Part shown: positions 18,300 through 58,231 of the stretch, in pieces
Position numbering within the stretch: position 1 is the stretch's first letter
Layout of the letters: every line of letters starts with the position of its first letter
Assembly (NCBI GenBank): GCA_944389545.1
Contig: CALXMT010000012.1
Coordinates: 1 to 61,862 of the forward strand
Direction of reading: 5' to 3'
DNA: 61,862 bases
DNA from: an uncultured Kiritimatiellota bacterium
Lineage (GTDB): Bacteria; Verrucomicrobiota; Kiritimatiellia; RFP12; DVOR01
The notes under the pieces: model-generated
The model's input: the letters and a program-made list of their open reading frames with translations, nothing else
The model's database searches: none
What the model was told of the DNA's origin: nothing
Position numbers and translations under genes: made by a program

Positions 18300-19325
18300 A
18301 TGATCATCATCATGAAACCCACGGCCACCCAGGCCGACGTGCAGACCATCTGCGACTGGATCACCTCGCTCCGATACCAGCCTCGCGTGACCACGGGCTC
18401 CGATCAGACCATCATCGCCTGCATCGGCAGCGAAATCAACCCGCAGACCGTCGAGCAGTTGGAAGCGCTCCCCACCGTCCAGGAAATCATTCACGTGAGC
18501 AAGAAATACAAGCTCGTCTCTCGCGACTTCAAGCACGAGGACACGATCGTCGACATCAAAGGCACCAAGATCGGCGGCGGGAACATCCCCGTCCTCGCCG
18601 GCCCCTGCGCCGTGGAGAGCTATGACCAGTTCCACGCCGTGGTGGCGGATCTGGTGGCGCTGGGCATCACCGTCATCCGCGCGATGGTCTACAAGCCCCG
18701 TACCTCGACCTACGACTTCCAGGGCCTGAAGGAAGAGGGCATCCGCGTCCTCCGCGAGGTGAAGCACGACTTCCCGCAGATCGCCTACATCACCGAGGTC
18801 CCCGGCCCCAACCAGCTCGAGGCCCTCATGGATGTGACTGACGTCTTCCAGGTGGGCGCGCGCAACTCTCAGAACTACGACCTGCTCGAGCGTCTGGGCA
18901 AGGCCGGCAAGCCCGTCATCCTCAAGCGCGGCATCGCCGGCACCGTTGAGGAGTGGCTGCAGAGCGCCGAGTACCTCATGGCCAACGGCTGCAAGGACGT
19001 CATCCTCTGCGAGCGCGGCATCCGCACCTACGAGACCATCACCCGCAACTGCCTGGACCTGGGTGCGCTGGCCGCCACCAAGCGTCTGACCCACCTGCCC
19101 ATCGTGGCCGACCCCTCGCACGGCGGCGGCAAGTTGGAGCTCGTGGTGCCTCTGTCCCGCGCCGCCCTCGGCGCCGGCTGCGACGGCCTCTTGGTCGAGA
19201 CCCATCCCGACCCGAAGCACGCCTTCTCCGACGCCGCCCAGCAGATCCCCTCCGCCCAGTTCGGCGAGTATCTCCAGGCCATCAAGCCCTGGCTTGACCT
19301 GGCCCAGGCCACGCGCCGCGCTTGA
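18300..19325 (+). CDS. aroF: 3-deoxy-7-phosphoheptulonate (DAHP) synthase, AroF type with N-terminal regulatory domain
   Basis: 341 residues. Condenses phosphoenolpyruvate and erythrose 4-phosphate, the first step of the shikimate pathway. The ATG at 18300 is preceded by AAGGAAG 6 bases away; a second ATG four codons later fits less well. Residues 1-75 form the ferredoxin-like/ACT-like regulatory domain of the Thermotoga-type enzyme, which in that family mediates feedback inhibition by Tyr or Phe. The catalytic barrel shows GPCAVES near 101, VYKPRTSTYDFQGL near 130-143 and DPSHGGGKLELV near 274, all standard for the KDO8P synthase/DAHP synthase type I-beta group. Transcription is probably controlled by the Phe/Tyr leader upstream. 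The gene ends in a palindrome with the TGA in its loop. About 260 bases of module repeats separate it from the pathway gene that follows. Confidence 0.95.
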   Translation: MIIIMKPTATQADVQTICDWITSLRYQPRVTTGSDQTIIACIGSEINPQTVEQLEALPTVQEIIHVSKKYKLVSRDFKHEDTIVDIKGTKIGGGNIPVLAGPCAVESYDQFHAVVADLVALGITVIRAMVYKPRTSTYDFQGLKEEGIRVLREVKHDFPQIAYITEVPGPNQLEALMDVTDVFQVGARNSQNYDLLERLGKAGKPVILKRGIAGTVEEWLQSAEYLMANGCKDVILCERGIRTYETITRNCLDLGALAATKRLTHLPIVADPSHGGGKLELVVPLSRAALGAGCDGLLVETHPDPKHAFSDAAQQIPSAQFGEYLQAIKPWLDLAQATRRA

Positions 19326-19351
19326 GCGCGGCGCGCGGAGCGCTCAAGCGC
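19312..19351. repeat. Gene-end palindromes at the DAHP synthase stop
   Basis: CGCGCCGCGC (19312-19321, last codons), loop TTGA containing the stop, and GCGCGGCGCG (19326-19335). The stop-containing word GCGCTTGAGCGC (19319-19330) then recurs inverted as GCGCTCAAGCGC at 19340-19351. There is no T tract, so it is not a standard terminator. Confidence 0.8.
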
Positions 19352-19589
19352 TCCGGCTGATTGGCTGATTGGCTGATTGGAACGCCCTGGCGGGCGACGG
19401 ATAACGTCCCCGCCACCACAATTGGCCAGTCGGCCTCTCCGGCTGATTGGCTGATTGGGATGCCCTGGCGGGCGACGGACGAAGTCTCGTCCATCCAGTC
19501 AGCCAATCGGCAAGACAGTTGAATCGTCGCCCGCTTTGCGGGCGTGTCTAATCAGCTAATCAGCTAATCAGCTTTCTATGGAGACGACC
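19326..19589. repeat. Short repeat gap between the aromatic genes
   Basis: After the gene-end palindromes come GATTGGCT octamers (19358-19379, 19443-19457 and TAATCAGC units at 19549-19572) alternating with CGCCC/GGGCG hairpins (about 19382-19397, 19461-19476, 19527-19544). No gene. Confidence 0.8.
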
Positions 19590-21005
19590 ATGACGCTCTA
19601 TTATCTCGGTCCCGAGGAAACCTTCTCTCACCGCGCCGCCACCCGCATGGCCAAGCCCGGCGAGACCCTCACCCCTTGCGCCGACTTCCGTGAGGTCTTC
19701 CGCAAGACCGCCGCCGACCCGGATGCCGCCGCCGTCGTCCCCTTCGAGAACACCACCCAGGGCAACGTGACCGAGGTGATGGACCTGTTGGCCGCCACGC
19801 CCACGTTGCGGGCCGTCGCCTGCCGCGCCGTCCCCGTCCACCAGCACCTCCTCTCCAAGGACCTCACCACGCCCATCACGCGGATCCTCTCCAAGGCCGA
19901 GGCCCTCGCCCAGTGCCGCGCCACCCTCGCGCGCATCTATCCCGGCATCCCGCTGGTGCCCGTCTCCTCCACGGCCGAGGCCGCCCGCCTGGCCGCCTGC
20001 GACCCCGTCTCCGCGGCCGTCGCCGGCGAGACCACCGCCAAGCGCTACGGCCTCGTCCTCCGCCGCCCCGACGTGCAGGACGCCACCGGCAACACCACGC
20101 GTTTCTTCCGCCTGGAGACCCACCGCCCCGAAGACGCCCACGGCGGCCCCGCCGACCTGCCCCCCACCCACGCCCTCCTTTACGCCACCATCGACGACCG
20201 CCCCGGCTCCCTCCTCGAGCTCCTCACCCCCCTGCGCGGCATCGACCTCACCCTCATCCAGTCCCGCCCCATCCCCGGTGAGAAGTGGAAATACGCCTTC
20301 TTCCTGGAGCTCCTCATCGGCGCCAGCAGCCAGCCCCTCGCCGCCGTCCTCGGCGCCCTCAAAGGCGTCGCCCGCGAGGTCCGTCTCCTCGGCTCCTATT
20401 CCATCACCACCCAGTCCACCGTCCCCGACGACGCCGGCACCACGGCCCTCTCCTCCCTCCGCGCCATGATCGCGGACATCGATTCCTCGCTCCTCACCGC
20501 CTTCGCCGCGCGCTCCCGTTTCCGTCTCAACCCTGGCCTCTACGCCCACGCCGAGGCCATCGACATCGACACCCTCGCCAAGGCCTTCGCCCACGGCGAC
20601 GCCACCGCGCAGACCCGCGCCCTCCGCCGCTTCTACCTCACCACCGTCGTCCCCTATCTCGCCCTCCCCGGCGACGACCCCGAGCCTCGCGAGGCCCTCC
20701 ACGCCGACTCCGACGCCATCGCCGCCCTCGCGCGCCGTTTCCGTTTCGCCGCCCGCATCATCGCCCGCAAACGCGTCGAGCAGGCCCCGTCCCTCCGCGC
20801 CGCCGCCGAGACCGGCGACCCGGCCAAGGTCGAGGCCGCTCTCCTCAACGAAGCCGTCGAGCAACGTGTCCTCGAGCGTGCCCAGACCTACGCCCTCCGT
20901 GAGGGCCTCACCGAGCAGCACGCCAAGCAACTCTCCTGGCTCTACCGCGACTATCTCCTCCCGGTCTCCCGTCTCATCCAGGTCCACCTTGTCCTCGACC
21001 AGTAG
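19590..21005 (+). CDS. pheA: Prephenate dehydratase - ACT - chorismate mutase fusion
   Basis: 471 residues. The ATG at 19590 is preferred over that at 19578 because GGAG sits 6 bases before it and the product then starts MTLYYLGPEETFSHRAA, as dehydratases do. Residues 1-178 are the dehydratase (prephenate to phenylpyruvate), with the family motif TTRFF near 170-174. Residues about 192-270 are an ACT domain (DRPGSLLELL; QSRPIPGEKWKYAFFLEL, the ESRP-like Phe-binding region). From about residue 290 comes a helical domain with LRAMIADIDSSLL and RSRFRLNPGLY, resembling chorismate mutase of the longer eukaryotic-like AroQ type rather than the 90-residue E. coli domain; that assignment is less certain. 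Domain order is the reverse of E. coli PheA (mutase first). The last two codons and stop form one arm of a 16-bp palindrome. Confidence 0.88.
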   Translation: MTLYYLGPEETFSHRAATRMAKPGETLTPCADFREVFRKTAADPDAAAVVPFENTTQGNVTEVMDLLAATPTLRAVACRAVPVHQHLLSKDLTTPITRILSKAEALAQCRATLARIYPGIPLVPVSSTAEAARLAACDPVSAAVAGETTAKRYGLVLRRPDVQDATGNTTRFFRLETHRPEDAHGGPADLPPTHALLYATIDDRPGSLLELLTPLRGIDLTLIQSRPIPGEKWKYAFFLELLIGASSQPLAAVLGALKGVAREVRLLGSYSITTQSTVPDDAGTTALSSLRAMIADIDSSLLTAFAARSRFRLNPGLYAHAEAIDIDTLAKAFAHGDATAQTRALRRFYLTTVVPYLALPGDDPEPREALHADSDAIAALARRFRFAARIIARKRVEQAPSLRAAAETGDPAKVEAALLNEAVEQRVLERAQTYALREGLTEQHAKQLSWLYRDYLLPVSRLIQVHLVLDQ

Positions 21006-21031
21006 GCGCTCCGGGGGAGCGCCTACTGGTC
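20997..21031. repeat. 16-bp gene-end palindrome at the pheA stop
   Basis: GACCAGTAGGCGCTCC (20997-21012) includes the last two codons and the TAG stop; after loop GGG the exact reverse complement follows (21016-21031). All 16 positions pair. GATTGGCT octamers follow rather than a T tract. Confidence 0.9.
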
Positions 21032-21640
21032 GGCTGATTGGCTGATTAGCTGATTGGCTGATTGGAGCGCCCCTGCGGGGCGACGGGCGGGGCAATGGGC
21101 AGAGGTGGAAGGTTTGGCCCTTTGGGCCTGCACGCTCTGTTCTCCGTTCTCCGGGGCGCAAAGCGCCCCTTCCCTGCACCCCCGGCACGTCTGCGACGTG
21201 CCAATAAGCACGCCCCACAGGAGATTCAGGAGATGCAGGAGATTCAGGAGCGCCCCTACGGGCGAAGGTGAAAACGTTGTGCAGGGCGCTTCTCTGGAGT
21301 ACCTATCTGGCAGTCTTCGTGAACCTTCGTGGTCCTTCGTGTCCTTCGTGTTTTTCTCAAAACTTTTCACATCTGCCTATCGCCTCGCCCGTCGCGCGCT
21401 TGTCGCGCGTTCTGTTCTCCGTGGCCGTGGAAGGTTTGGCCCTTTGGGCCTGCACGCTCTGTTCTCCGTTCTCCGTTCTCTGGGGCGGCATCAGCCGCCC
21501 CTTGGTCCTTTGTGTTCTTTGTGATAGCCCCGCAGGGCAAACCTTCCACGCTACTCTAGTGACGAAATCCGGCGGCGGCAGAATAATGCTTGCATGGGGG
21601 AGGAAAATGGGGCATACTGAAGGGAACGAAAGGATTGGGT
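21006..21640. repeat. Intergenic repeat mosaic before the sulfatase
   Basis: GATTGGCT octamers (21034-21065), CGCCCC hairpin, reversed GTGCA hairpin (about 21104-21138, stem GGCCC/GGGCC), GGGGCGC/GCGCCCC, GGCACGTC/GACGTGCC, ATCTCCTG-type repeats inverted (21220-21252), CTTCGTGTC tandem (21313-21356), a second reversed composite unit (21395-21500) and CAGCCCCGCAGGGCAAACC-like sequence. No gene; CATACT at 21613-21618 may be a -10 box. Confidence 0.75.
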
Positions 21641-23470: not shown

Positions 23471-24795
23471 TGGCCGCCCCGCGCAAACGCAAACCCGCCC
23501 CGGTCAAGCGGCGCCGACGCTCCGACGCACCGGCCAAGCCCGCACGCGGCAAATCCGGACGTGACGCCGGCGGCGCCGGCGGGGGCGGGGTCTTCCTGTT
23601 GTCCGTCGCCGGGGTCCTCGCCGCCGCCTTTCCCATCCTGCGCGACGGCGCCTTCCTGGGGCCCTTCGTGCTGTGGGGCGCGGCCACCGCGCTCGCTTGG
23701 TGGTGGAGCCGACCGCCCCGTTTCACCGGCGACCGCGTCCTCGTCGCCCTCACCTGCCTCTTGCTGGGGCTGGGCGTCGCGATGCAGGCGCGGCTGGGCA
23801 CGTGGGCGGAGAGTTGGGGGGCGTGGCGGGCCTACGCGCCGCTCCTCGCCGGTCTGGCGGTCTTTCTGGGGTGTCTGCGTTGGCTCACGCCCGGGGCGTT
23901 GACCCGCGCCCTGCCGCCGTTGCGCTGGGTGCTGTGGCTCTTGGCCGTGGGCGTCATCGCCGTGCTCTTCTGCTTTGGCCGGCCCTACCGCGGCGGACTC
24001 TTCCTGCCCGGGCAGATCAACCCCACCGAGTTGGCTAAGGTCGCCCTCGTGGCCTTTGCCGCCGCGTGGCTCCCGCGCCATGCCGAGGGCCTCTCGCGGA
24101 CGCTCTGCGGCGTGCCCTTCCCGCCGTTGCGCGATGCCGCCGCGCTCGCCTTCGCGTGGGGTGTGCCGCTCGTGGGCGCCGTGCTCGTGCGCGACCTGGG
24201 GCTGGCCCTCATCCTCTGCGTCACCGCCTGCTTCCTGCTCACCGCGCTCACGCGCCGTCCCGCCTGGCTCGTCTTCGGCCTCGCCGCCGCCGTCACCGCC
24301 GCCTATCTCCTGCACGGCGTCAGCGACCACACCGCCACCCGTTTCGACGTCTGGCTCGACCCCTTCGTCGACCCCATCGGCAAGGGTTGGCAGATCGGCC
24401 AGGCCCTCAGCGCGCAATACGCCGGCGGTCTCTGGGGCGTGGGCGTGGGCCAAGGCCTACCCGAGACCGTCCCCATCGTCGCCAACGACTTTGTCTACGC
24501 CGCCGTCGCCGAGGAGTGGGGCCTCATCGGCTGCGGACTTCTGCTCTTGCTCTACTGGCTGTGGCTTCTCCGTCTCGCCCGCGTGGGCGCCGACGCCCAG
24601 AGCCCCGTGCTCGGACTGCTCGGGTCCGGCGCCGCCGCCCTCCTCGGCACGCAGATCCTCCTCAACATCGCCGGCGTCACCAAGGCCCTCCCCATGACCG
24701 GCATCACCCTCCCGCTCCTCTCGCAAGGCGGCTTCTCCCTCCTCTCCGTCCTCCTCCTCCTCGGCCTCGCCGTCGCCGCCTCAAAGGGGCGCTAG
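23470..24795 (+). CDS. SEDS-family peptidoglycan polymerase (FtsW/RodA-like)
   Basis: 441 residues. Begins at the ATG overlapping the sulfatase stop (TGATG). A basic, Gly-rich cytoplasmic N-terminus of about 38 residues is followed by roughly ten hydrophobic segments. Family signatures: GQINPTELAKVA near 179-190, VRDLGLALIL near 239-248 containing the catalytic-type Asp, VANDFVYAAVAEEWGLIG near 337-354, and GVTKALPMTGITLPLLSQGG near 401-420, the strongest SEDS hallmark. The family polymerises lipid II into glycan strands with a class B penicillin-binding protein, which is not next to this gene. FtsW and RodA cannot be separated here; coupling to a sulfatase is unusual and may be chance. The stop borders a hairpin. 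Confidence 0.9.
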   Translation: MAAPRKRKPAPVKRRRRSDAPAKPARGKSGRDAGGAGGGGVFLLSVAGVLAAAFPILRDGAFLGPFVLWGAATALAWWWSRPPRFTGDRVLVALTCLLLGLGVAMQARLGTWAESWGAWRAYAPLLAGLAVFLGCLRWLTPGALTRALPPLRWVLWLLAVGVIAVLFCFGRPYRGGLFLPGQINPTELAKVALVAFAAAWLPRHAEGLSRTLCGVPFPPLRDAAALAFAWGVPLVGAVLVRDLGLALILCVTACFLLTALTRRPAWLVFGLAAAVTAAYLLHGVSDHTATRFDVWLDPFVDPIGKGWQIGQALSAQYAGGLWGVGVGQGLPETVPIVANDFVYAAVAEEWGLIGCGLLLLLYWLWLLRLARVGADAQSPVLGLLGSGAAALLGTQILLNIAGVTKALPMTGITLPLLSQGGFSLLSVLLLLGLAVAASKGR

Positions 24796-24812
24796 GGCGG
24801 CTGCGCCGCCCT
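24794..24812. repeat. 8-bp hairpin starting in the SEDS gene stop codon
   Basis: AGGGCGGC, loop TGC, GCCGCCCT. The first two bases are the AG of the TAG stop. GGAGAACGGAGAACAGAG heptamers follow directly, so this is the terminal hairpin of a composite unit abutting the gene. Confidence 0.7.
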
Positions 24813-25741
24813 GGAGAACGGAGAACAGAGAACGGAGAACAGAAGCGCCCCTGCGGGGCGACCGGCGAAGCCGTAATCCAGTCGGCGTCAGCCGCCGTCC
24901 TATAGGTCCTATTCGTCCTATTCGTCCTACCGCGTCGCCTGAAACAACCAAAGAAACCGCCGATTACGCAGATTAAAGCCGATTAGGGGCCGGCTCCCGC
25001 CGTCAGGACGATCAAGGGAACCGCAGATTGCGCAGATTTGGAGCAGATTAAGGGCGTGCTAGCGCACGCAGGACTGCCAGAGTGATTGAAAAATAACAAA
25101 GGACACGAAGGGGATTGGATAATTGGGGGCTTGGAAGATGTGGGGCGCTGCCCCACGCCCCGGCAGGGGAGGGGCGCCGTTGGCGCCCCGGAGAACAGAG
25201 AACGGAGAACAGAGAACGGAGCGCCCCTGTGGGCGACAAAGAAATCGCTGAGCAAAGAAGCCAAGCCTCCAAGCCTCCAAACTTCCAAGCTTCCAATTGC
25301 CCCTGCTCCCCCGGCACGTCTGCGACGTGCCAACTAGCACGATGGAATAACGCTGAAGAAAGCCAAGCCTCCAAGCCTCTAAACTTCCAAGCTTCCACTT
25401 GCCCCTGCACCCCCGGCACGTCTGCGACGTGCCAAAGGACGACGCGGTAGGACATATAGGACGTATAGGACATATAGGACGGCGGCTGACGCCGCTTGGA
25501 CAACGGCTTGTCCGTCGCGCGTTTACGCGCGCTCCTGTATCTCCTGTATCTCCTGAATCTCCTGTACGGCCTTTGAGGCTTTCTGCGAAGCCACAGAAAC
25601 GCAAGGGATGGGCACGGTAGTGAGGCCCGCAGGGCTGAACGGTGAAGTGCCCAGGCCCTTGCGTTCCTTCGTGTCTTCGTGGAAAAGGGCCTGGCGCCCC
25701 GTCAAAAAAGGTTCTGGCCGGCGGCGGGGTAGAGGGCAGAC
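24796..25741. repeat. Intergenic repeat mosaic before the NYN gene
   Basis: Hairpin, heptamers and CGCCCC hairpin (24794-24862); CCTATTCGTC-type tandem; CCGATTACGC-type tract; hairpin GCGTGC/TAGC/GCACGC (25054-25069); GGGGCGCC heptamer unit; two CTTCCAAG tandems each followed by GGCACGTC/GACGTGCC (25315-25333 and 25415-25433); AGGACATAT tandem; GCGCGTTTACGCGC hairpin; ATCTCCTG tandem; and the first copy of the 32-bp direct repeat (25704-25735). No gene. Confidence 0.75.
25704..25735. repeat. 32-bp direct repeat, distal copy
   Basis: Matches 26483-26514 at 31 of 32 positions. In the other copy this sequence is the last ten codons and stop of the SDR gene (minus strand LYPAAGQNLF). The two copies bracket the NYN gene and its promoter. 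Confidence 0.85.
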
Positions 25742-27134: not shown

Positions 27135-27564
27135 GGTCGGGAAAGGGGAGAACGGAGAACAGAGAACGGAGAACGGAGGGGCGGCTAGCGCCGCCCCAGA
27201 GAACAGAGAACAGAAAACAGAGAACAGAGGCGCCCCTGCGGGGCGACGGAGGGAGCGGTGGGGAGGGGCGGCACAAATCGCACAGGAGATTCAGGAGATA
27301 CAGGAGATTCAGGAGCGCGCGTGAACGCGCGACGGATAGGCTGCGGTACAAAGCGGCGAAGCCGCCGTCCTAGTCGTCCTATATGTCCTATAGGTCCTAC
27401 CGCGTCGCTTTCCAATCTTCCTCTCAGCGTCCATTTGTTGGCATCGGGCGGAAAAATACGCTGGGGAAACCGTGATAGTCTCCCCAGCGTGTATTTGTCG
27501 CCCTTCGGGCGGCCAAGCTTCTAAGCTTCCAAACTTCCAAGCTTCCGGCTAAGGGCGGATGCCC
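27135..27564. repeat. Intergenic repeat mosaic between the SDR gene and infC
   Basis: Heptamers (27148-27178), GGGGCGGCTAGCGCCGCCCC-type hairpin, more heptamers, CGCCCC hairpin, CAGGAGATT tandem (27282-27312), GCGCGCGTGAACGCGC hairpin, CCTATATGT tandem, two ACGCTGGGGA-like words in inverted arrangement (about 27460-27490) and CTTCCAAG units before the infC end. No gene is seen; rpmI and rplT, which usually follow infC, are absent. Confidence 0.75.
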
Positions 27565-27570
27565 TTAGCC
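27547..27570. repeat. 10-bp gene-end palindrome at the infC stop
   Basis: GGCTAAGGGC, loop, GCCCTTAGCC. On the minus strand the last codon GGC and stop TAA form the proximal arm. There is no T tract; CTTGGAAG units follow. Confidence 0.85.
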
Positions 27571-30065: not shown

Positions 30066-30100
30066 GCAAATGGGTGGGTGCAATGCGCCCACCCATTTGC
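30066..30100. repeat. 13-bp hairpin upstream of thrS
   Basis: GCAAATGGGTGGG (30066-30078), nine-base loop, and its exact reverse complement (30088-30100). Sits at or just above the -35 position of the thrS promoter. Confidence 0.8.
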
Positions 30101-31215: not shown

Positions 31216-31651
31216 TTGTCTCGTGGGGCCTTCCCGGCCACCCCTCAAACTCCTCTTCGCGGACCCTTAGAGGGGTGGCTGACGCCACCCCGGAGAACGG
31301 AGCGTGCAGGCCCGGAGGGCCAAACCTTCCACGGCCACAGAGAACGGAGAACAGAACGCCCCCTTCTCCACGAAGACACGAAGGAACGCAAGGGCCTGGG
31401 CACTTCACCGTTCGGCCCTCCGGGCCTCACTACCGTGCCCATCCTTTGCGTTTCTGGCGTTTCCTCGGAGAATCGCACGTGTTGGAAACCGCCGATTCCG
31501 CAGATTAAAGCCGATTAGGGGCCGGCTCCCGCCGGCAGGACGCCCAGGGAAGCTTGGAAGTTTAGAGGCTTAGAGGTTTGGACGGGGCTTTCTCCGTCGC
31601 CCCGCAGGGGCGTTCCGTTCTCCGTTCTCTGTTCTCTGTTCTCTTGGAGGG
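31216..31651. repeat. Intergenic repeat mosaic after the PEP-CTERM gene
   Basis: Composite unit starting with GGGGTGGC/TGAC/GCCACCCC (31272-31291), heptamers and a GTGCA hairpin with stem GGCCC/GGGCC (about 31301-31334); CACGAAGGA tract; a palindromic CGGCCCTCCGGGCC segment; CCGATTCCGC tract; CTTGGAAG tandem; CGCCCC hairpin; GTTCTCC heptamers running to the next stop codon. No gene. Confidence 0.75.
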
Positions 31652-33052
31652 TTACCGGAGGTAATCCTCCAGACCATCGGAGATGGCGCGGAGGGTTTCG
31701 GAGGTGAAGAGGGCGTCGTTGGCTTCGAGCTGGGTTTTGCGCTTGCAGAGGAGGGCGTAGTAGTCGTTGAGGAGGGATTTGAGGGAGTCGGGGGCGTCGG
31801 TGCGGAGGTAGGAGACGAGGGCCCAGGCGACGGCGTAGTGGTCGCCGATGGAGCCGGAGTAGAACTCCTCTTGGCTCATGTCGAGGAGTTTGCGGAGGCC
31901 GGTGGGGGAGCGGAGGGCGACGGCTTGGCGGGCTTGGGCGCGGCGGCGGGAGGGGCCGGGGACGGCGCGGCCGCCCTTGACGGTGAAGGTCTCGAAGAAG
32001 GTGGCGTGGCCTTCGTTGAACCAGATGGGGACGGCGGCGTTGCCGGGGGTGATGAGGAAGAGGTATTGGTGCCAGCCTTCGTGGAAGGTGATGGAGCGGA
32101 TGTCTTCGCGGCGGCGCTCGCGGTCGTCTTCCCCGGAGTCGCCCATGACAACGAGTTCGCGCTCGAGGGAGGAGAAGTGGCCGCTGGACCACTCCATGCC
32201 CTTGCCGGAGTGGGCGCGGTACTCGTCGGGATTGGCGAAGACGCGGATGACGCTGGTGGGGATCTTGGTACCTTTGGGCTCGGGGAGGGCCTGGGTGTAG
32301 GCGGCGCGGATGGCGGTCATGTCGGCCAGGAGGGTGTCGAGCCACTTGCGGTCGCGTTTGGGGAGGTCGGTGTGGAGGCGGTAGGGGGGCTTGTCGAGGG
32401 TGATCCAGCCGCCGGCGGCCTGGGCGGTGCCGGAGAGGCCGCGGCCTGCGGAGGCGAAGCCGGCGAGGGCGCGTTGGAGCGGAGTGCGCCAACGAGCGGG
32501 CGGGTCTTCGGAGGGGGTGATGATGAGGGCGTAGGGCTGCAGGGGGGTGTCTTTCAGGAAGAAGACGAGGACGGCGGCGTTACCGGCTTCGGCGAACTGG
32601 GCTAGGCGGATGCCGCCGACGGGCCGCAGGGCCTGGGGCTTGCCGCAGGTGGCGCCGGTCCATTCGCCGATCCACATGCCCAGGGCGGAGGGCTTGAGGG
32701 TGCCGGTCCGCTCCTGCACCTTGTCGTATTCCTCGCGGGTGACGAGGGTGCGGGGATAGGGACCGCCGCGGCGGGACTTGGGCGCGACGAGTTCGTAACG
32801 GTTGCCGTCTTTGTCGGCCCAGGCGCCGAGGCGCTGGTCGCGGCGCCAGAGTTGCTCGGGGTCGAAGGCGTCGAACTCAATGACGGAGCCGTCTGGCTTC
32901 TGGCTCATGAAACGGTAGGATTCCAACGGCGGGGTGGGGGTGGCCTCCACGCCCTTGGGCAGGCGGATGCGAATCGGCTCGCACGCGACATTCTCGGAGA
33001 ATTGGGGCACGGCGGCATACGCCGCCGTGAGAGAACAGAGAACAGTGAACAG
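31652..33052 (-). CDS. Secreted HExxH metallopeptidase-like protein (DUF1570-like), start uncertain
   Basis: Up to 466 residues. No ATG/GTG with an RBS is available; the best coherent start is CTG at 33052, giving MFTVLCSLTAAYAA then VPQ, a plausible short signal peptide. That stretch is itself heptamer-repeat DNA plus a 9-bp hairpin, so the original 5-prime end may have been replaced; if none of these starts works the gene is a pseudogene. From VPQFSENVACEPIRI onward the protein looks normal. HEGWH at residues 324-328 and NEG with Glu near 347 make a gluzincin-type zinc site (HExxH plus downstream Glu), the arrangement in DUF1570 proteins of planctomycetes and relatives. Probably an envelope or extracellular peptidase; the substrate is unknown. 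Its stop is followed directly by heptamers. Confidence 0.6.
   Translation of the reverse strand: MFTVLCSLTAAYAAVPQFSENVACEPIRIRLPKGVEATPTPPLESYRFMSQKPDGSVIEFDAFDPEQLWRRDQRLGAWADKDGNRYELVAPKSRRGGPYPRTLVTREEYDKVQERTGTLKPSALGMWIGEWTGATCGKPQALRPVGGIRLAQFAEAGNAAVLVFFLKDTPLQPYALIITPSEDPPARWRTPLQRALAGFASAGRGLSGTAQAAGGWITLDKPPYRLHTDLPKRDRKWLDTLLADMTAIRAAYTQALPEPKGTKIPTSVIRVFANPDEYRAHSGKGMEWSSGHFSSLERELVVMGDSGEDDRERRREDIRSITFHEGWHQYLFLITPGNAAVPIWFNEGHATFFETFTVKGGRAVPGPSRRRAQARQAVALRSPTGLRKLLDMSQEEFYSGSIGDHYAVAWALVSYLRTDAPDSLKSLLNDYYALLCKRKTQLEANDALFTSETLRAISDGLEDYLR
33008..33029. repeat. 9-bp hairpin inside the apparent signal-peptide coding region
   Basis: CACGGCGGC, loop ATAC, GCCGCCGTG, followed on the + strand by AGAGAACAGAGAACAG heptamers: the usual terminal hairpin of a composite unit, but here overlapping the start of a gene instead of its end. 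Confidence 0.75.
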
Positions 33053-33588
33053 GAGGGGCGCTACGCGCCCCGGAGAACGGAGAACAGAGAACGGAGAACG
33101 GAGCGCCCCTGCGGGGCGACGGGCGGGGGTGCTGTGCAGAGCGGCGTCAGCCGCCGTCCTAGAGGTCCTAGTTGTCCTATATGTCCTACCGCGTTGCCAC
33201 AAGGCGCACAGGAGATGCAGGAGATGCGGGGGCGCTGCGCGCCCCGGAGAACGGAGAACAGAGCGAGCAGCGGCGAAGCCGCAAACCTTCCACGGCCACA
33301 GAGAACAGAACGCGCGCAAGCGCGCGACGGAGAAGTTGAGGGGGTGTGGGGCGAAGCCCCTCCCAATCAAGCCAAGCCTCCAAGCCTCTAAGTTTCCAAA
33401 CTTCCACAGGAGATTCAGGAGATGCAGGAGCGCGCGTGAACGCGCGACGGATAGGCCGCTGGGCAAATGGCGTTTCATAGAGTATGTTTCTCCTTGCATT
33501 CCGATTCCTTTGTCGCCCCATAGGGGCGCCTCTGTTCTCTGTTCTCCGTTCTCTGTTCTCTGGTGAAGTTTCACTGAGCGCCCCGCGC
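33053..33588. repeat. Intergenic repeat mosaic upstream of the metallopeptidase-like gene
   Basis: GGGGCGC/GCGCCCC hairpin (33055-33072), heptamers, CGCCCC hairpin, CCTAGAGGT tandem, CAGGAGATG tandem, a composite unit with GTGCA hairpin variant GCGAGCA (33263-33296) and a CGCGCG hairpin, CTTCCAAG tandem, GCGCGCGTGAACGCGC, CGCCCC hairpin, heptamers, then the gene-end palindrome of the phosphatase. No gene, and no promoter recognised for the metallopeptidase-like gene. Confidence 0.75.
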
Positions 33589-33603
33589 TCAGTGAAACTT
33601 CAC
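33563..33603. repeat. 19-bp gene-end palindrome at the phosphatase stop
   Basis: Arms 33563-33581 and 33585-33603, loop CCC, all 19 positions complementary. On the minus strand the last four codons and stop (VKFH, TGA) plus GCGC form the proximal arm; the distal arm is their exact inverted copy. AGAGAACAGAG heptamers follow. The strongest example of its kind in the window. Confidence 0.95.
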
Positions 33604-34779
33604 CGCCACATCCTTCACATATTGGGAGCGGAGGACGTCGGCGAGCTCCTTGACGATGTTGCGGCGGATGTCCAGGGCCATGGGGAGATTGGGGTCTTGG
33701 TGGGCGGGGTTGATGGCGGTGCCGACGTCGATGCGGATTTGGTCGGAGGCGAGGAGGAGGTCGCGCATTTTGGTGGCGGGGTTGACGCGGGCGTCTGGGC
33801 CGGGGTTGCGGAGGAGCTCGATGACTTTGGAGAGGGTGACGCAGCCTTCGGTGACGAGGTCGATGCCGGGGATTTCGGAGCCGGCGGGGACCTCGGGGTC
33901 GAGGGCGGTGAGGGGGGTGTCGATGGGGCGGTCGAGCTCGCGGGCGATGAGGTCTGCGGTGGAGCCGCCGGAGACGATGACGGAGACGCCGGGCTGTGTG
34001 GCGAGGGCGGCGTAGGCGGCGTCTTGCGTGCGGTCGAAGGGGCAGCCGGTGAGCATCTGGGTGACGCGCGGGCGGCGGTAGTGGAGCATGGCGGCGGTGG
34101 TGTCGTCGCCGGCGCGGCCGCCGTCGAGGCGGGTGGCGCGGTCGGCCGCGCCCTTGCAGAGGACGTGCGAGCCGACGTCCGGGGCGATGCGGATGGCCTC
34201 GCGGAGCCAGGGGACGACGCGCTCGAGGCCTTGGCCGAAGGGGGTGTCGGGGGCGCCGAGGCCGGCCTGGGTGATGCCGTCGGAACAGAAGAAGAGGCGG
34301 TCGCCCAGGCCCATCGTGAAGGTGGAGTAGGAGAGGGTGCGGCCTTCCCAGCGGGGGAGGGTGTAGGGCGTGCGCGCGATGGGGCGGGGCGTGTCGCCGT
34401 GGAGGAGGGTGGCCGGCGGGTTCTCGTATTCGATCATGCGGACCTCGCCGCGGGGGTCGGCGCGGATCATGGTGAAGGTGGAATAGGAGATGTGCCGGTC
34501 GGGGCAGATGGGCAGGGCGTCCATGATGAGCGTGGCGGCGCGGCGGAGGCCGAGGGCGGCGCGCATGTAGGCCATGGCCATGGTGGCGGTGAGGCTGGCG
34601 CAGACGTTGGCCTGCTGGCCGCTGCCGAGGCCGTCGGTGAGCACGGCCACCACCGAGCCGTCGGGCAGGCGCTCGCTGAGGAAGACGTCGCCGCTGCAGA
34701 CCTTGCGGAACTTGCGGCGGTTGAACCAATCCACCTCGATGAAGGGGGGCGGGGCCCCGTCTTGCGGTGCCTGGCTCAT
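33589..34779 (-). CDS. SpoIIE-type PP2C serine/threonine phosphatase
   Basis: 396 residues. Start ATG 34779 overlaps the stop of the hydrogenase-like gene (ATGA), indicating translational coupling. The N-terminal 240 residues show the PP2C/SpoIIE metal-binding segments: VLTDGLGSGQQA near 47-58, FFCSDGITQAG near 165-175 and GRAGDDTTAAML near 225-236. Such phosphatases dephosphorylate Ser/Thr on anti-anti-sigma factors or similar switches. Residues about 240-396 form an extra domain not recognised, with VIVSGGSTADLIARELDRP. In clostridia and other anaerobes this phosphatase is encoded next to sensory [FeFe]-hydrogenase-like proteins, matching the operon here, so it is the probable output of an H2 or redox signalling pathway. 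The gene ends in a 19-bp palindrome. Confidence 0.87.
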   Translation of the reverse strand: MSQAPQDGAPPPFIEVDWFNRRKFRKVCSGDVFLSERLPDGSVVAVLTDGLGSGQQANVCASLTATMAMAYMRAALGLRRAATLIMDALPICPDRHISYSTFTMIRADPRGEVRMIEYENPPATLLHGDTPRPIARTPYTLPRWEGRTLSYSTFTMGLGDRLFFCSDGITQAGLGAPDTPFGQGLERVVPWLREAIRIAPDVGSHVLCKGAADRATRLDGGRAGDDTTAAMLHYRRPRVTQMLTGCPFDRTQDAAYAALATQPGVSVIVSGGSTADLIARELDRPIDTPLTALDPEVPAGSEIPGIDLVTEGCVTLSKVIELLRNPGPDARVNPATKMRDLLLASDQIRIDVGTAINPAHQDPNLPMALDIRRNIVKELADVLRSQYVKDVAVKFH

Positions 34780-36884: not shown

Positions 36885-38033
36885 TCACTCGTTGGCTTGC
36901 AACTCCAACAAGAGGCCTCCCGCCTCCCGGTCGCCTTGCTCGATGGCCTTCCGCAACCACACCTTCGCCTGCTCCGTCGAACGCCTCACGCCCCGGCCAT
37001 AGGCATAGCACGCGCCAAGGGCCCGTTGCGCCTGGGCATCCCCCTGCTCCGCGGCCTTGCGGAGCCACTTCACGGCCTCCTTGTCGGACCGCCTCACGCC
37101 TTCTCCATAGAGATAGCACATGCCGAGGTTGCACTGCGCCAAAAGGTCCCCTTGCTCCGCGGCCTTGCGCCACCACTTGACCGCCTCCTCATACGACTGC
37201 GCCGTGCCTTGGCCGGTGTAACACTGCCAGCCCAGATTGGTCTGCGCCTGGGCCACCCCCTGTTCCGCGGCTTTACGGAACCACTTTGCGGCCTCTGCGT
37301 TGGACTGTTTCACGCCTTGACCACTGGTGTAACACAGTGCGAGGTTGGTTTGCGCCTGGGCATCCCCCTGCTCCGCCGCCTTGCGATACCACTTGGCCGC
37401 CTCTTCATCGGACTGCTTCACGCCTTGGCCCTTGTCGTAATAGAAAGCGAGGTTGGTCTGCGCCTGGGCATTCCCCTGTTCCGCGGCCTTGCGCCACCAC
37501 TTGGCCGCCTCTTCATAGGACTGCTTCACGCCTTGGCCCTTCTGATAATACAGCGCGAGGTTGAATTGCGCTTCCAGGACTCCCTGTTCCGCCGCTTTAA
37601 GGAACCACTTCGCGGCCTCCTCATAGGATTGTTCAACGCCCTCCCCATCCGCATAGAAGACCCCCACTTCATATTGGGCCTGTGCGATGCCCTGCTCCGC
37701 GGCCTTGCGGTACCACTTGACGGCCTCTGCGTCAGACCGCTCCACGCCTCGGCCGTTGTAATAAGAGAGGCCAAGGTTGAACTGCGCCTCGGCGTACCCT
37801 TGCTCCGCGGATTTGCGGAACCACTTCAGCGCCTCTTCATAAGACTGCGCCACGCCTTCGCCGGTGGCGTAGCAGGTGCCAAGGTTGTTTTGCGCTTCGG
37901 CGTCACCCTGTTCCGCAGCCTCGCGATAGCGCGCGGCCTGCTCGGCGGGGGACAGGCCCTCTTCGGGCGCCGCGACGGAGACGGCCCCCCAGAGGCAAAC
38001 CAAAAGCAACGCAACAAAACGGACTCTCTTCAT
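36885..38033 (-). CDS. Secreted Sel1-repeat (TPR-like) protein
   Basis: 382 residues. ATG 38033 with GGAGG 6 bases upstream. Sec signal MKRVRFVALLLVCLWGAVSVAA. Residues about 38-362 are nine complete 36-residue Sel1-like repeats, each of the form AEQGxAxAQxNLGxxY..GxGVxxSxxEAxKWxRKA, followed by a partial tenth. Sel1 repeats are helical solenoids that bind other proteins; in bacteria they often sit in the periplasm or act in signalling. The repeats are highly alike at DNA level too, so the gene is probably prone to gain or loss of units. No enzymatic domain. Promoter TATACT lies about 24 bases before the ATG. The partner is unknown. Confidence 0.92.
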   Translation of the reverse strand: MKRVRFVALLLVCLWGAVSVAAPEEGLSPAEQAARYREAAEQGDAEAQNNLGTCYATGEGVAQSYEEALKWFRKSAEQGYAEAQFNLGLSYYNGRGVERSDAEAVKWYRKAAEQGIAQAQYEVGVFYADGEGVEQSYEEAAKWFLKAAEQGVLEAQFNLALYYQKGQGVKQSYEEAAKWWRKAAEQGNAQAQTNLAFYYDKGQGVKQSDEEAAKWYRKAAEQGDAQAQTNLALCYTSGQGVKQSNAEAAKWFRKAAEQGVAQAQTNLGWQCYTGQGTAQSYEEAVKWWRKAAEQGDLLAQCNLGMCYLYGEGVRRSDKEAVKWLRKAAEQGDAQAQRALGACYAYGRGVRRSTEQAKVWLRKAIEQGDREAGGLLLELQANE

Positions 38034-43100: not shown

Positions 43101-43610
43101 CCTTGTGGCCTTTTCTACAGAAAAGGGTCGGGGCGTGGGGCAACGCCCCACCAAAACGCCAATCAGCGAATCAGCGGGGCGCGTCAGCGCCCGTCGCCCC
43201 GTAGGGGCGCTCCTGCATCTCCTGCATCTCCTGAATCTCTTGTGGTCGTCTTGATGGCACGTCGCAGACGTGCCGGGGGTGCAGGGAGAACTTCTCCCCT
43301 GCCGGGGCGTGGGGCAGCGCCCCACACCCTTCAATCCCCTAATCAGCCAAAATCCCTTTGTGTCCTTTGTGTCCTTTGTGATTTCCAAAAAACACTGGAG
43401 TCTTGCCGGCGGTAGCCGGCCCCTAATCGGCTCCAATCGGCGTAATCGGCGGTTCCCCATTTCCTGCCTTCTTTGTGAGCCTTCGTGGTTCTTCGTGGTT
43501 CTTCGTGTCAGCCCCGCAGGGCAAACCTCCCACTCTCTCCCAGCGCTCTGCCCATCGCTCTCTTCGTCGCGCGCTTGTCGCGCGCTCTGTTCTCTGTTCT
43601 CTGTTCTCTG

Positions 43611-43655
43611 TTTTTTTGCGTTGGGGGCGCCTCTCGCGCCCCCAACGCAAAAAAA
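43611..43655. repeat. 20-bp perfect hairpin upstream of the pseudopilin operon
   Basis: Arms 43611-43630 (T7 then GCGTTGGGGGCGC) and 43636-43655 (its exact reverse complement ending in A7), loop CTCTC. T on the left and A on the right means neither strand gets the usual 3-prime T tract outside the stem, although the paired T run could itself serve. It ends 26 bases before the -10 box. Confidence 0.85.
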
Positions 43656-44858: not shown

Positions 44859-47800
44859 ATGATGAAACGCTTCCGAATTTGGGCGCTTGCAACAGTGGCG
44901 GTGGGACTTCTTGGAGGCCCCGCCGCTTGGGCGCAACAGGACGACAACATCGTCCAAGCAGACAGGGTGCTCTACGCCGTCTCTCTGCTCGACGCCACGA
45001 CCAATGAAAACGTGACCACCGCCAATGGCCAGCCCGCCACCGACGAGAGTTCGCGCGTCCGCGTCAAGGTCACCCTCTCCATCCCGCGCACGGGCACGAC
45101 TTACGGCATGCCGACCTACGCCAGGCCCTCCCGCCTGATGTTCCGCCCCCACAAAGGCCCCGAAACCGCCTTCGACGGCTCCATCCTCCTGACGCGCGAC
45201 GCGCCCTATGACACGAATAGCGCCTCCGCCTCCGGCTTCTATCCCATGCCGCAGACCGGCGACACGCACTACGACCTTGTCGAAAGCGGCGATCCCACCC
45301 CCTCCTACGTCGCCCCGGCCGACCAGACCTCCACCGTCAACCCCGCCCGCTGGGAGTGCACCTACCTCAGCGTCAACACCTACGACCTCAACGCGGTTGA
45401 CAACCCCGTCAACCCCTTCCTCGTCTCCTTGATGAACGGCCAGAGCACCTACGAGTGGTACGTCGCGGGCACCTACGGTATCGGCTCCTTTACCCGCGTC
45501 TCCGACATCCAGGACGCCGGCCGCAAGCAGACCTTCACCGACCCCCGCGTCTGGACCCCGCACGAAGGGGGCGACATGGACAGCGAAGGCGTCGCGTTTG
45601 ACTGGGCCGACGGCCTCCAGCTCGGCACCCTCAACCGTTGGGGCTCCATCTACCGTTGGACCCTGGGCGTCATGCCCGGTGACACCACGTGGGAAATTCA
45701 CGGCGGCGTCATCGGCGACACCGCCAACGGCGTGGGCGGCGTCCAGCTCCTCGGCATGCCCGGCACCGCCGCCGCGGACCACTCCGGCGACCCCCGCCTA
45801 GTCTCCCCCATTTATCCCGACGGCATCTCCTCCATCTCCTTCGATGCCGCCCTCGCTACCGACATGGCCGATCAGACCCTCCGCGTCGAGGTCCAGCCCT
45901 CTGGCGGCACTTGGACGCTCGTGGGCGAGGGGGAGGATTCCCCCGCCGGCGTCATCACGCCCACTGTCAACCTCCGCTCCTATACCGTCGCCATTCCCGC
46001 CGACCTCGGCACCGCCAATTGTCGCTTCCGCATCGTCCGTGACACCTCCTACCAGGGCGGCAGTCAGGATCAGTTCGTCATTACCATCAAAAACCTGATT
46101 GTACGCTCCGCCTCGCCCTCCGCCTCCTTCGATGCGGCCCCCGTCGTCAGCCCCAACCCCCTCTATGCCCCCACCGGCGGCACCTGGACGCTCACCCTGA
46201 AGGCCGAGGGCGCCGGCGACGCCACCAACGTCCCCCGCGGCTACGAGGCCGACATTCAGCTCCGCCGCCGCGCCAATGGCGACACGACCGCCCAGTGGTA
46301 CTCCGCCGCCAACGTCTCGGTCTCCAGGCCCAACGCCACCACCGGCGCGAGCAACCTCACCGCCACCTTCTCCCCCGTCACCCTGACCACCGGCAACGAC
46401 GGCTCCACCAACGTCACCGAGAACGCCTTCGCACTCAGCAACGGCCGAATCACCGGCGCCCTCCCCGGCGTCTATGACGTCAAGCTGAATTACGGCATCC
46501 TCGGCTCCTTCCTCGCCGGACGCGACATCATCGACCAGCGCGAGTCCGTCACCGGCGAAATCTCCGTCTACACCGTTCAGGTCGAGAACCCCGACTACGA
46601 CCCCGCGGACTCCAATAGCGAGGAGTTTCTCACCGAGTATCATCCCATGGTCGCCGACCTCCGCGAGCAGGAGACCGCGCGCGAAGGCGTCACCCTCCGC
46701 CTCTTCTACCGCAGTGGCGATGAAGGGTCCTACTACAGCTTCCTCACGCTCGACGTGCCCATGCTCCCCGACGCCCACAACCCGAAACTGTGGCGTGCCG
46801 ACCTCTCCCGCGTCCTCCGCGAGGCCACCGAGAGCAATGGCTCCCGCGACACCACCGCCGTCTACGTCTGGGCCCCCAATGAACTCTTCGAGCCGCCCAC
46901 CGATGGTGCGACCGGCCACCGCGAGACCGGCACCGAAGGCTACCTCGCCTTCCGCGTCTTCGCCACTGCCCCCGATGGCACGGTGAACTGGCTCGGCACC
47001 GGCACCGGCAACACCTCCATGCCCACCCCCCTCAACGCCGTCCCCGCCACCTCCGCCAAGTTGGTCACCACCACGGACGAGGACTCGACCGCCCCCGTCG
47101 TCACCCCCCTCGACATCCCCAATTCCCACATCTCCGTCGCCATCGACTTCTCCGCCTCTGATACCGAGCCTGCCATCTCCCTCGTCGGCTCCTACTGCCA
47201 GGACTTCAACACCTGGTATGCCGCCGCCGGCTCCGACAACGATGGCTTCGGCGACTCCGACTTCCGCGAGGACGTCAATCGTTGCACGGCCAACTTCAAT
47301 GTCCGGACGTGGGGCACGAACGACACCACCGGCGACCGCACCATCGTCGCCGGCTGGATTCCCGATGAGGGCCCCTTTGCCGAGACCTCTGCCTTCACCG
47401 ACTCCTTCGCCGTTGCCCGCACCCAGACACAGTCGGAGTCTTCCATCTATAAATACTTCTACAATAACACCGCCGACCGTGCCAGCGGGAACAACTTCCG
47501 CCAGTGGGGCGCCTCCAGCGATGCCGCCGGTTATCGTTACCTCCAGCTGGATAAGCAGGTGACGTCGTGGTCGCGCTATTTTGAGCTGAGCAGGGAGACC
47601 GAGGTTGTCCTCCGCCGGGATGCGTCCCGCTTGGGTGACGGCACCTGGATGCCCAATGCCATGGTGCGCCTCACGCCCGGCGACGAGATGAGCCCCAATA
47701 CCAATGCGAACCTGAACGGCATCGGCACCGTCACCATTTCCTACTCCCTCTCCATGCCGTACAACATGAACTATCGCGCCAAACTGAGAGGAGCCGATGG

Positions 47801-50800
47801 ACTCCTCTCCGGCTATGGCCTCGCCGCGGGCATCGACACCTCGGGCTTCACCACCTCCTGCGCGCCCTCCGGCGTCTCCGTCTCCTACTATCTCGAAAGC
47901 GCGTCTATCACCTACGAACTCCGCCTCACCCAGATTTGGGACTTCACCACGTCCGTGGACACCAAGCCCCAAGAGCGTGTCGTCGTTGAGATGTACAGTT
48001 GGAACGGCGGGCGTGCCGAGCGCCTCGCCCTGAATCCGATTGCCGGCGAAACGGGAACAATCTACTCGCGCTTCGTGACGGATGTCAACACCCTGGCCGG
48101 CAACTCCTTCGCCTTCTGGGTCGATGCGAATGGTTACCTGCGCGCCGGCCGTCTCTCCTCCGCCAACAACAGTGGCACTTACAACAGCACCTTTGCGCGT
48201 TCCAATGCGACCGTCACCGTCCCGCAGGATGGCTTCACCTTTGCCATCGGCACGGCGGAGTGTGCCCCCACCTTCCGTTATTTGCGGACGACCGCTTCGC
48301 GGTCCGACACCTTCTCCGGCAACGGCATCGGCACCAATGTGACGATTGAGCAACCCTCGGTGCCCACGTGGGGCGTGGGTTGGTCTGTCAATGAAGAGAC
48401 GAGTGGCGGCACGATTCGCCTCTCCCGCAACAAGCCTTCGGTCACCCAGGGCGGCCAGCTGCGCCTCGATCTCACCCAACAAGGGGCGACAATCGATGGC
48501 GGCCGGACGTTGCAGGCGCCCACCTTTGGCACAATGACCACCTCCACCGTCACCCTCGGCCGCGCCAATGCCGACTTCACGATCTCCTGCATCTACCCCG
48601 AGGGGGCGAACGAGGCCAACGACATCTCCGGCATCTTCGTTGACGATATCACCGTCTCCTCCTGGTGCGGCGACGATACGAACCGCAACGGCGAAACGCA
48701 CGTCCCCGTCAACACCAACGCAGGCTTCGGCGGCGAGGATGCCGCCGGCGAGGGCTTCTCCGCCGTTGGCGTCTGGGTGCGCCCGCGCGATGACGCCGAG
48801 CTGGACGTCAATCAGTGGAGTTACACCGGCGAGCAGGTCCTCCTCATGCAGCGCTCCCGCCAGAACACCTCGCGCACGTTGGCAGGTGAAGTGACCGTCG
48901 ATGGCGTCACCACCACCGCGGCCTCTCTGGCCCTCTACTTCCCCTGGAGCGATGGCGGCTATGGCCCCGTCACCTTCGATTACTGCATCCCCCCGCGTGC
49001 GGGCACCGCCGGCGAGCCCGTCACCCTCATGTTGCAGTACAGCGAATTCGCGGACCGCACCACCAACTTCCTGGAGAATACCACTGACGCCACCTCGGGC
49101 TGGGAGAATGTCGCCTCCATCACGCTGGACGATGTCTCCGGCGCCTGGTCCTCCGTTTCCGTCATCCCGCGCATCGATGGTGAGGAAATCGTCGGCGGCG
49201 AGGGCACCCTCCGCCTGGTCATGGTCATCCCCGATGCCCAGAGCGACAACCTCAACTACGACCCCTACGTCTACATCGACAACGTCGTTGTCACCGACAA
49301 CCGCGCGGGCGTCCTCGCCTCCTGGACCGCCGGCAACGCCCGCCTCACCTCCACCCCCGTCGACCTCCTCTATTGGAAGGATCGCCAGGCCGCCGAGAAC
49401 CTCACCACCGAGGCCGGCGACACCCTGACCCAAGACACCTTCGCCGAGAAGGCCGCCCTCACCACCGCCTTCCAGTTCAACAACACCACCACCGAGCAGC
49501 TCACCGATTCCTACATCGATTCGCCCCTCCTGGATGCCGGTGTCGGTGTCGGCCGCGTCTCCTTCGCCGCCCGCCTCTCCGCGCAGAACGCCAAGCCCGT
49601 CCGCCTCTACATCTCCGGCACCAAGGCCGAGAAGGCCGCCGAGTCCTTGGCCGCCGATGACTTCTCCATCCTCACCTACGTCGACATCGAGAACACCGTC
49701 TACACCGCCTTCGATCTCGACCTCTCCAAGATCACCTTCCTTGAGGGCGACTTCACCTACCGCGACATCCGCCGCCTGCGCCTCTGGGTCGCCCCCAATG
49801 GCCTCGCGCCCGCGGATTACACCGGCGGCTATGACCGCGTCCTCATCGACCGCCTCTCCATCAGCGACCCCGTCTCCCCCAACCTCCGCATCACGGACGT
49901 CGCCTTCTCCAACGTCGCCGGCAACAAACTCCCCGAAGAGTTCGTCTCCACCTCGCCGCTCTCCCAGCCCGTCTCCGGCGCCCCCGTCCTCCGCGTCTGC
50001 GCCACCGTCGGCAACCGCCAGCTCGTGAAGGACGACACCGTCCGCGTCTTCTTCACCTACATCACCACCGACGCCTCCACCCTCCGCGACACCTCCAATT
50101 CCTACACGGACGTCTTCAACAATTCCTTCACCGGCTCCGCGGATAGTCCCATCTACCGGTGGAAGGGTAGCGCCGAGGAGTGGGCCATCTCCTCCTGGTT
50201 CGACACCGTTGCCAATCCTATCGATCCCGCCGTTGTCGGCCCGGATGCTGACTGGGAGGACTCCTACCCGAACACCATCGAACTCGAGCTCGGCGATGAC
50301 CCCAACGACCGCGAGCGCTTCTATGGCGACCTCTCCGAAGAGGGCATCGCCGGCCTCCCCGAAAACTCCCTCGTCCGCTACGTCGTCTGGGCCGTCTACC
50401 AGGGCGACCAGCTTGACGCCGAGGGCAATCCCACCGACGAGTGGTTCATGTCCGTCATCAGCGCCTCCGACTACAAGGAGCCCGCGTGGTACTTCCCCCG
50501 CAGCCTCAACAAGGAAATCCGCGACGCCCACAACGCCGCCCACGAGGACGACGAGGAGGCCCAGGTCGGCACCGAGTGCTTCTCCCCCTACTTCTGGATG
50601 TACTCCTGCGTCCCCGGCGAAGTCTTCCTCAACGAACTGAACTTCACCGACAACTCCACCAACCCCCTGCTTTCCGCCTTCGCGGAAATCTGCGTCCCCG
50701 TCGGCGTCGATCTCTCCGCCTGGCGCTTCGCCAGCACGGGGTTCGGCAACAACGGCACCACGGAGCTCTCCGGCATTTACGCCGTTCCGACGACCTATAA

Positions 50801-57969: not shown

Positions 57970-58231
57970 AGCCGGCCCCTAATCGGCTCCAATCGGCGTA
58001 ATCTGCGGTTCCTTTTGCGACGTCTTCTCAAGCGTCGCGGTAGGACATATAGGACGTATAGGACATATAGGACGGGGCGGCTAATGCCGCCCTGTATGCA
58101 CAGTGACCTCTTCGTCGCCCCGCAGGGGCGCTCTGTTCTCCGTTCTCCGTTCTCTGTTCTCCGGGGCGGCGAAAGCCGCCCCTTGGTCCTTCGTGTCCTT
58201 CGTGTCAGCCCCGCAGGGCAAACCTTTCACA
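57970..58231. repeat. Second copy of the duplicated intergenic block
   Basis: Near-identical to 2701-2993 but without the GTGCA-type hairpin module; plain GTTCTCC heptamers stand in its place. Its CGCCCC hairpin has loop GCA instead of GTA. Confidence 0.8.

Follow-up and report, generated by a model that had tools for sequence, protein, structure and literature searches.

How does the end of a protein-coding gene, stop codon included, come to be followed by an exact inverted copy of itself? This question was raised by a SpoIIE-like phosphatase gene on the minus strand of the window, a stretch of 61,862 nt that constitutes contig C12 of a 2.53-Mb draft genome (G000). The palindrome that spans the stop of this gene (33562–33604, minus strand) was established by direct reading, inverted-repeat scans and comparison with orthologues, and has perfect 20-bp arms (33562–33581 and 33585–33604) around a 3-nt loop, which is ccc on the plus strand. 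On the gene strand it reads GGTGAAGTTTCAC TGA GCGC / ggg / GCGC TCA GTGAAACTTCACC, followed by GAGAACA units. The proximal arm consists of the codons GTG AAG TTT CAC TGA plus GCGC, and the distal arm is their inverted copy. An array of GAGAAC(A/G) units (33530–33562, minus strand, 33 bp) begins right at the distal arm, and the module ends in a 3′ hairpin of a fixed type, CGCCCC-nnn-GGGGCG (33514–33528, minus strand). The origin and upkeep of long perfect stems are an open question, to which template switching is one proposed answer, as it has been suggested both to create and to maintain hairpins (Monttinen and Loytynoja 2022, PMC8794818). Dozens of young, datable hairpins are available in the closely related genomes compared here, with one arm pinned by protein coding; with that arm fixed, one can read straight from the sequences how the copy arose, which way it ran and how it was maintained.

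The sequence-only reading of the window had reported palindromes at further gene ends, and all of them were present where it had placed them, although the arms measured 20 bp rather than 19 at the phosphatase and 17 bp rather than 16 at pheA. Pfam confirmed the identities of the genes in the window (SpoIIE, PDT, DAHP_synth_1, IF3_N/IF3_C and FTSW_RODA_SPOVE), and no Rfam family matched anywhere in it. At pheA, a stop-spanning palindrome (CGACCAGTAGGCGCTCC / GGAGCGCCTACTGGTCG, 20996–21032, plus strand, arms 20996–21012 and 21016–21032, loop ggg) leads into an array of GCTGATTG units (21032–21065, plus strand) and then into a 3′ hairpin, CGCCCC-tgc-GGGGCG (21068–21082, plus strand), which was read directly and assigned to the fixed type from a survey of the modules. 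The DAHP synthase gene end carries an inner 10-bp palindrome around the stop (19312–19335, plus strand, loop ttga) and an outer 12-bp one (GCGCTTGAGCGC / GCGCTCAAGCGC, 19318–19351, plus strand, arms 19318–19329 and 19340–19351), the loop of which is 10 nt here and 3 nt in the congener G003; GCTGATTG units follow at 19355–19380 (plus strand). The infC palindrome (GGCTAAGGGC / GCCCTTAGCC, 27547–27570, minus strand, 10 bp) spans the TAA and precedes an array of GGAAGCTT units (27513–27546, minus strand), with a separate T-tract terminator downstream. The hairpin at the SEDS gene end (AGGGCGGC tgc GCCGCCCT, 24794–24812, plus strand) includes the AG of the TAG stop and adjoins a GGAGAAC array (24813–24843); taken alone it is weak, and its anatomy is the same as that of the others. 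As had been remarked from the letters, no T tract follows the stem at any of the reported palindromes, and arrays come next instead.

The frequency of such stems was estimated from sampled stretches of metagenome-assembled draft genomes (862 kb of G000, 794 kb of G003, 181 kb of G008, 240 kb of G007 and 160 kb of G005), the palindromes being checked by direct reading and inverted-repeat scans. Genes were called with a simple codon-usage script, by which a few gene ends may be wrong, and the G008 contigs were picked for holding arrays, so that rates for G008 are not genome averages. Perfect stop-spanning arms of at least 10 bp were found at 7 of 528 gene ends in G000 and at 8 of 512 in G003, compared to 0.25 expected in either sample when downstream sequences were exchanged between genes; stems of this kind are thus more frequent than chance. 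In all of the G000 and G003 cases the stem passes directly into an oligomer array, or a short vestige of such an array, with units of GAGAACR, GCTGATTG or GGAAGCTT, and the oligomer tract that was said always to follow the palindrome was present at all seven G000 stems. In the array-free congener G007, such an arm occurred at none of 136 gene ends, and its 240 kb held no perfect inverted repeat of at least 10 bp adjoining an array. Stop-spanning stems are rare, at approximately 1.5 % of gene ends, and several array-bearing gene ends have no stem of this kind or just a stock hairpin.

Attachment specifically at gene ends, as the sequence-only reading had proposed, was not upheld. Among 50 array-adjoining stems of at least 9 bp, 11 overlap a CDS end, 4 overlap a CDS start and 6 lie inside genes, while of the remainder 13 are no more than 60 nt from a gene end or start and 16 are more distant. 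Gene ends are simply one place where the junction falls, and a mechanism specific to them was rejected on this distribution. They are over-represented compared to gene starts, plausibly because selection removes repeats that lie ahead of genes. Beside GCTGATTG and TTGGAAGC arrays, some long stems are terminators with A/T tracts located ahead of the array, and a few ordinary terminators are therefore counted in these two classes.

Tandem arrays abound in the intergenic DNA. Their units measure 7, 8 or 9 nt and most total about 25 or 33 bp; the three unit sizes give nearly the same total length, as if length, rather than the number of units, were set. The two sides of the GAGAAC arrays differ. 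On the 5′ side a hairpin was found at 129 of 191 arrays, with 56 distinct arms of 6–20 bp and 22 stems of at least 10 bp, whereas the hairpins on the 3′ side (138 of 191, usually followed by ACGG) have 12 arms, 132 being exactly 6 bp and none of the 138 reaching 9 bp. It is thus the upstream hairpin that varies and faces the target, and GAGAAC arrays form a polar module with a target-copied hairpin on one end only. An upstream hairpin is absent from a third of the GAGAAC arrays, and the stock cores GGGGCGC and GGGGCGGC account for 55 of the 129, which indicates that the hairpin is often partly carried by the element rather than copied. Other array families differ in this respect, upstream hairpins being present at 21 of 37 GCTGATTG arrays, 17 of 89 TTGGAAGC arrays and hardly any of the CAGGAGATT and TAGGACATA arrays. 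The TAGGACATA arrays in the window (2772–2804, 25448–25480 and 58041–58073) have fixed flanks, usually GCGG before and mostly a GGCGGC-type hairpin afterwards, and almost never a target-copied hairpin upstream. A scan of 145 genomes from the order detected GAGAAC arrays in 5, which all belong to this genus, with pattern counts of 310 in G000, 145 in G003, 70 in G008, 8 in G001 and 7 in G005; the repeat module is limited to part of one Lentisphaeria genus.

Comparison of orthologues revealed which arm is the older. The phosphatase C-terminus, VKFH-stop, is kept among close congeners, and G005, G015, G006 and G007 are element-free at this position. Since the same C-terminus is conserved in congeners without the palindrome, the coding arm is ancestral and the distal arm new. 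The arm reads GGTGAAGTTTCACTGAGCGC/ggg/inverse in G000, GAAGTTTCACTGAGCGC/ctc/inverse in G008 and GAAGTTCCATTGAGGGGC/ggct/inverse in G003, which has the codons TTC CAT; each genome inverts its own codons (TTT CAC versus TTC CAT), and the inner cores and loops differ. The phosphatase distal arm is thus new and matched to the codons of each species. A site antisense to the 5′ part of the gene after the phosphatase behaves similarly (CACGGCGGC-atac-GCCGCCGTG, then GAGAAC units; 33008–33029, plus strand): in G003 it reads ACAGCTGC-gtac-GCAGCTGT, the synonymous change in the AAV codons being mirrored in the copy (ACGGCGGC/GCCGCCGT versus ACAGCTGC/GCAGCTGT), and in G008 and G005 the flank is present alone. 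The proposal that the distal arm is templated from the target therefore found support, as the copy tracks codon changes at both the phosphatase and the AAV site.

Sites between genes extend this pattern. A non-genic TTTTTTTGCGTTGGGGGCGC is copied as GCGCCCCCAACGCAAAAAAA (43611–43655, minus strand) ahead of a GAGAACA array (43585–43612), and G008 has the flank, TTTTTTTG, with the copy absent; a flank without its copy in a relative was also found at G003 C5 39122, making three such sites, with the AAV site, beyond the phosphatase. Another non-genic palindrome (GCAAATGGGTGGG / CCCACCCATTTGC, 30066–30100, plus strand) precedes an array of the TTGGAAGC family, and its G008 counterpart (AATAGGTGGGCGC / GCGCCCACCTATT) precedes a GAGAAC array, which is a different family; here AATGGG/CCCATT in G000 and G003 corresponds to AATAGG/CCTATT in G008. 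A mirrored change was seen at one further G008 site (GGGA/TCCC), and at the G008 L230 gene end and its G003 orthologue the stops differ and each palindrome copies its own. When orthologous stems were compared by eye, roughly six changes were mirrored and roughly four pairs broken, and several stems had been replaced wholesale but were still perfectly paired; arms thus change in concert between species.

The expectation that the proximal arm is ancestral and the distal arm new was thus satisfied at the phosphatase, the AAV site, 43611 and G003 C5 39122, but failed at the inner DAHP synthase stem. This palindrome (CGCCGCGC/GCGCGGCG around the stop) is present in G005, and in similar form in G001, both of which lack arrays there, so its distal arm predates the array; for this one case, the sequence-only reading had itself named such a finding as evidence against its proposal. 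The infC palindrome is identical in G003 and G005, and G008 instead has GGGGCGC-ttt-GCGCCCC and a GAGAAC array. At pheA the inner hairpin is common to G000 and G003; G003 has only this inner part (GGCGCTCC/GGAGCGCC) and the G000 arm is 9 bp longer, a difference which suggests that some arm growth may be later than the arrival of the module.

Taken together, we consider it probable (roughly 60 %) that the palindromes at gene ends are the points at which a polar repeat module joins its target on the upstream side, and that these junctions were made and kept perfect by template-switch, or snap-back, DNA synthesis. The hairpins appear to have been written by copying the adjoining DNA, since the copy follows codon changes between species, and intrastrand template switching is suggested by the reverse-complement copy, the 3–5 nt loop, the polarity from old to new sequence, the lengthening of arms and the concerted change. 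The module would run from a hairpin with a target-derived outer arm, through an array of 7–8 nt units (mostly about 25 or 33 bp), to a fixed 6-bp GC hairpin, usually followed by ACGG. The 3′ end of the target strand would fold onto itself through a loop of 3–5 nt and be extended by copying 7–20 nt of its own strand, including the last codons and the stop if the junction falls there, and synthesis would then run on into the array. Later intrastrand template switching would lengthen and re-copy the arm, and with repeated re-copying the two arms would evolve in concert. From these patterns we infer that snap-back took place, either at insertion or later, and that an enzyme supplied the array. It is possible, and we offer it only tentatively, that an undescribed polar, non-autonomous element joins its target by self-primed snap-back, each insertion writing a local inverted copy, an array of set length and a fixed hairpin. 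If the junction is made at insertion, this would point to a previously undescribed route by which repeats attach to DNA. The pattern would also mean that in these gut bacteria the stop codons and 3′ UTRs of housekeeping genes are being rewritten by a mutational process, not by regulation.

Selection on transcripts could also have produced such structures, if a stem across the stop protected mRNA 3′ ends or paused transcription and compensatory mutation kept it paired. The stems are indeed very stable (for the phosphatase a predicted −37.7 kcal/mol, z −8.1), 11 of the 50 long ones overlap a CDS end, and the paired changes between species look compensatory. However, like stems occur in antisense at gene starts, inside genes and in intergenic DNA, 20-bp stems seem beyond what such a role needs, and infC has a T-tract terminator of its own. 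Of 1544 stem pairs, 1524 were Watson–Crick, 2 were G-T, 10 were A-C and 8 were others; this gives no sign of selection on RNA of the array strand, although the test is only suggestive, given how few mismatches there are and given that the same numbers, read on the other strand, would amount to a G-U excess. Nor does transcript selection alone account for a new arm that exactly copies the old coding arm in each of three species whose cores differ. The protection of mRNA 3′ ends, which the sequence-only reading had entertained as its alternative, is therefore not favoured by the stems at starts and inside genes, the lack of G-U enrichment and the separate infC terminator, and we regard this explanation as unlikely.

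A conventional mobile palindrome, REP- or MITE-like, might instead bring both arms with it, its loop giving the gene its stop codon. Stock hairpins with TGA or TAA in the loop (GGGGCGC-TGAC-GCGCCCC and GGGCGGC-TAAC-GCCGCCC) do occur at some gene ends, where the element brought them, and at G000 C10 27342 the element has replaced the last codons of the gene. Yet a palindrome of this kind leaves unexplained why arms consist of conserved codons already found in relatives without the element. As a sole account it is refuted by the mirrored arms, whose differences between species follow those of the codons exactly, and we judge it improbable. Chance overlap of stops by ordinary intrinsic terminators without a U tract, a described class that is reported to be common in bacteria (PMC8355165), would account for stable GC stems near stops, but the genome has a clear T-tract terminator class 15–30 nt past stops that is distinct from the palindromes, and the palindromes go with arrays and are missing from the congener that has none, making this very unlikely. 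Snap-back chimeras arising in library preparation or assembly have to be considered for metagenome-assembled drafts; orthologous palindromes nevertheless lie at the same positions in separate assemblies that are collinear downstream (infC in G000, G003 and G005), and an artefact of this kind is hardly credible.

Cyanobacterial STRR are short tandem heptamer arrays. The GAGAACR arrays are of the same type, being dispersed 7-nt units in non-coding DNA, and are accompanied by families of 8 and 9 nt. The account of Beggiatoaceae TAACTGA repeats (PMC4679880) also concerns short tandem heptamer arrays. Both systems resemble ours in that arrays with units of about 7 nt are dispersed between genes, numerous per genome and phylogenetically patchy. 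They differ in that several unit families of 7–9 nt, mostly totalling about 25 or 33 bp, are found here with a target-derived hairpin upstream and a fixed one downstream; the abstract on the Beggiatoaceae repeats mentions no bracketing hairpins. REP and REPIN sequences (PMC3116915, PMC3733652) share the character of short, dispersed, non-autonomous palindromes outside genes, whereas the sequence of the REP palindrome is conserved and the arms here follow the target (56 distinct among 129). In Nematomorpha mitochondria (PMC6649704), perfect inverted repeats likewise include conserved coding sequence, but both arms code there, while here only the proximal arm does and an array follows. A further parallel is the correction of quasipalindromes by template switching (PMC8794818; work in E. 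coli and yeast), in which adjacent reverse-complement copying gives perfect hairpins in one event and arms stay identical through multi-base compensatory changes; the difference is that dozens of loci are involved here, at one end of a specific array, with conserved coding sequence, including stop codons, being copied. Searches for intergenic repeats returned no match for Kiritimatiell* and no relevant match for Lentisphaer*, and no description of target-copied hairpins at arrays was found in the searchable literature. Template-switch hairpins as such are known; none of the literature searched describes them as attached systematically to one side of a repeat module.

Candidate drivers were sought among the genes of these genomes. 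REP and REPIN palindromes are mobilized by RAYT, for which the Y1_Tnp model gave no match in G000, G003, G008, G005 or G001 while control genomes were positive. Reverse transcriptase (RVT_1), the enzyme expected if the hairpins were products of a retroelement, DGR or retron, was found in none of 17 congeners, the control being positive, although these genomes are 50–96 % complete and the absence is not absolute. Both were rejected as drivers, neither model having been found in array-bearing genomes. DDE_Tnp_1 transposases are present in G003 and G005 and, by this model, in neither G000 nor G008; the G003 copy examined has ends unlike those of the islands described below. Most differences between genomes were whole islands, and the comparison yielded no clean insertion of a single module opposite an unambiguous empty site. 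Terminal inverted repeats with target-site duplication were seen for these larger, sometimes array-carrying islands and not for the single hairpin–array–hairpin module. MITE-like islands bounded by AATASTGTCCGGRGAAA, with target duplications of 11 bp (e.g. GATTAACGGGC), lie at G000 C9 34638, C3 88629, C2 4819 and C2 161106; their ends number 35 in the G000 sample and 10 in that of G003, and some islands carry arrays as cargo. Furthermore, an island of about 500 bp with long terminal inverted repeats starting TTTCCACGAAGACACGAAGGAACGCAAGGG lies at approximately 81600–82140 of G003 C1, opposite G000 C10 39127, and is absent from G000.

Several minor observations concern coding sequence in the window. 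The end of a DUF1570 gene carries an imperfect 12-bp palindrome (31645–31671, minus strand), with its centre in the CDS end and the stop in the distal arm, adjoining a GAGAAC array. Because the centre lies within the coding sequence and the C-terminal residues are LEDYLR, compared to LDAYLR in relatives, copying may have altered the protein here. At 33008–33480 (minus strand), several hundred bases of arrays separate the ATG (ATGAAACGCC in G000) from the mature DUF1570 part. In G000 the frame appears open through these arrays, which may thus encode the region of the signal peptide; in G005 this region looks like a normal signal peptide. Orthologous sites are also present in G003 C5 and L077. 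Two giant genes occupy 3955–16815 and 44895–56939 (about 4,290 and 4,010 aa), the first of which matches Laminin_G_3 and TSP3. Finally, tandem repeats of 108 bp at 36945–37916 overlap a predicted gene on the minus strand and probably encode a repeat protein.
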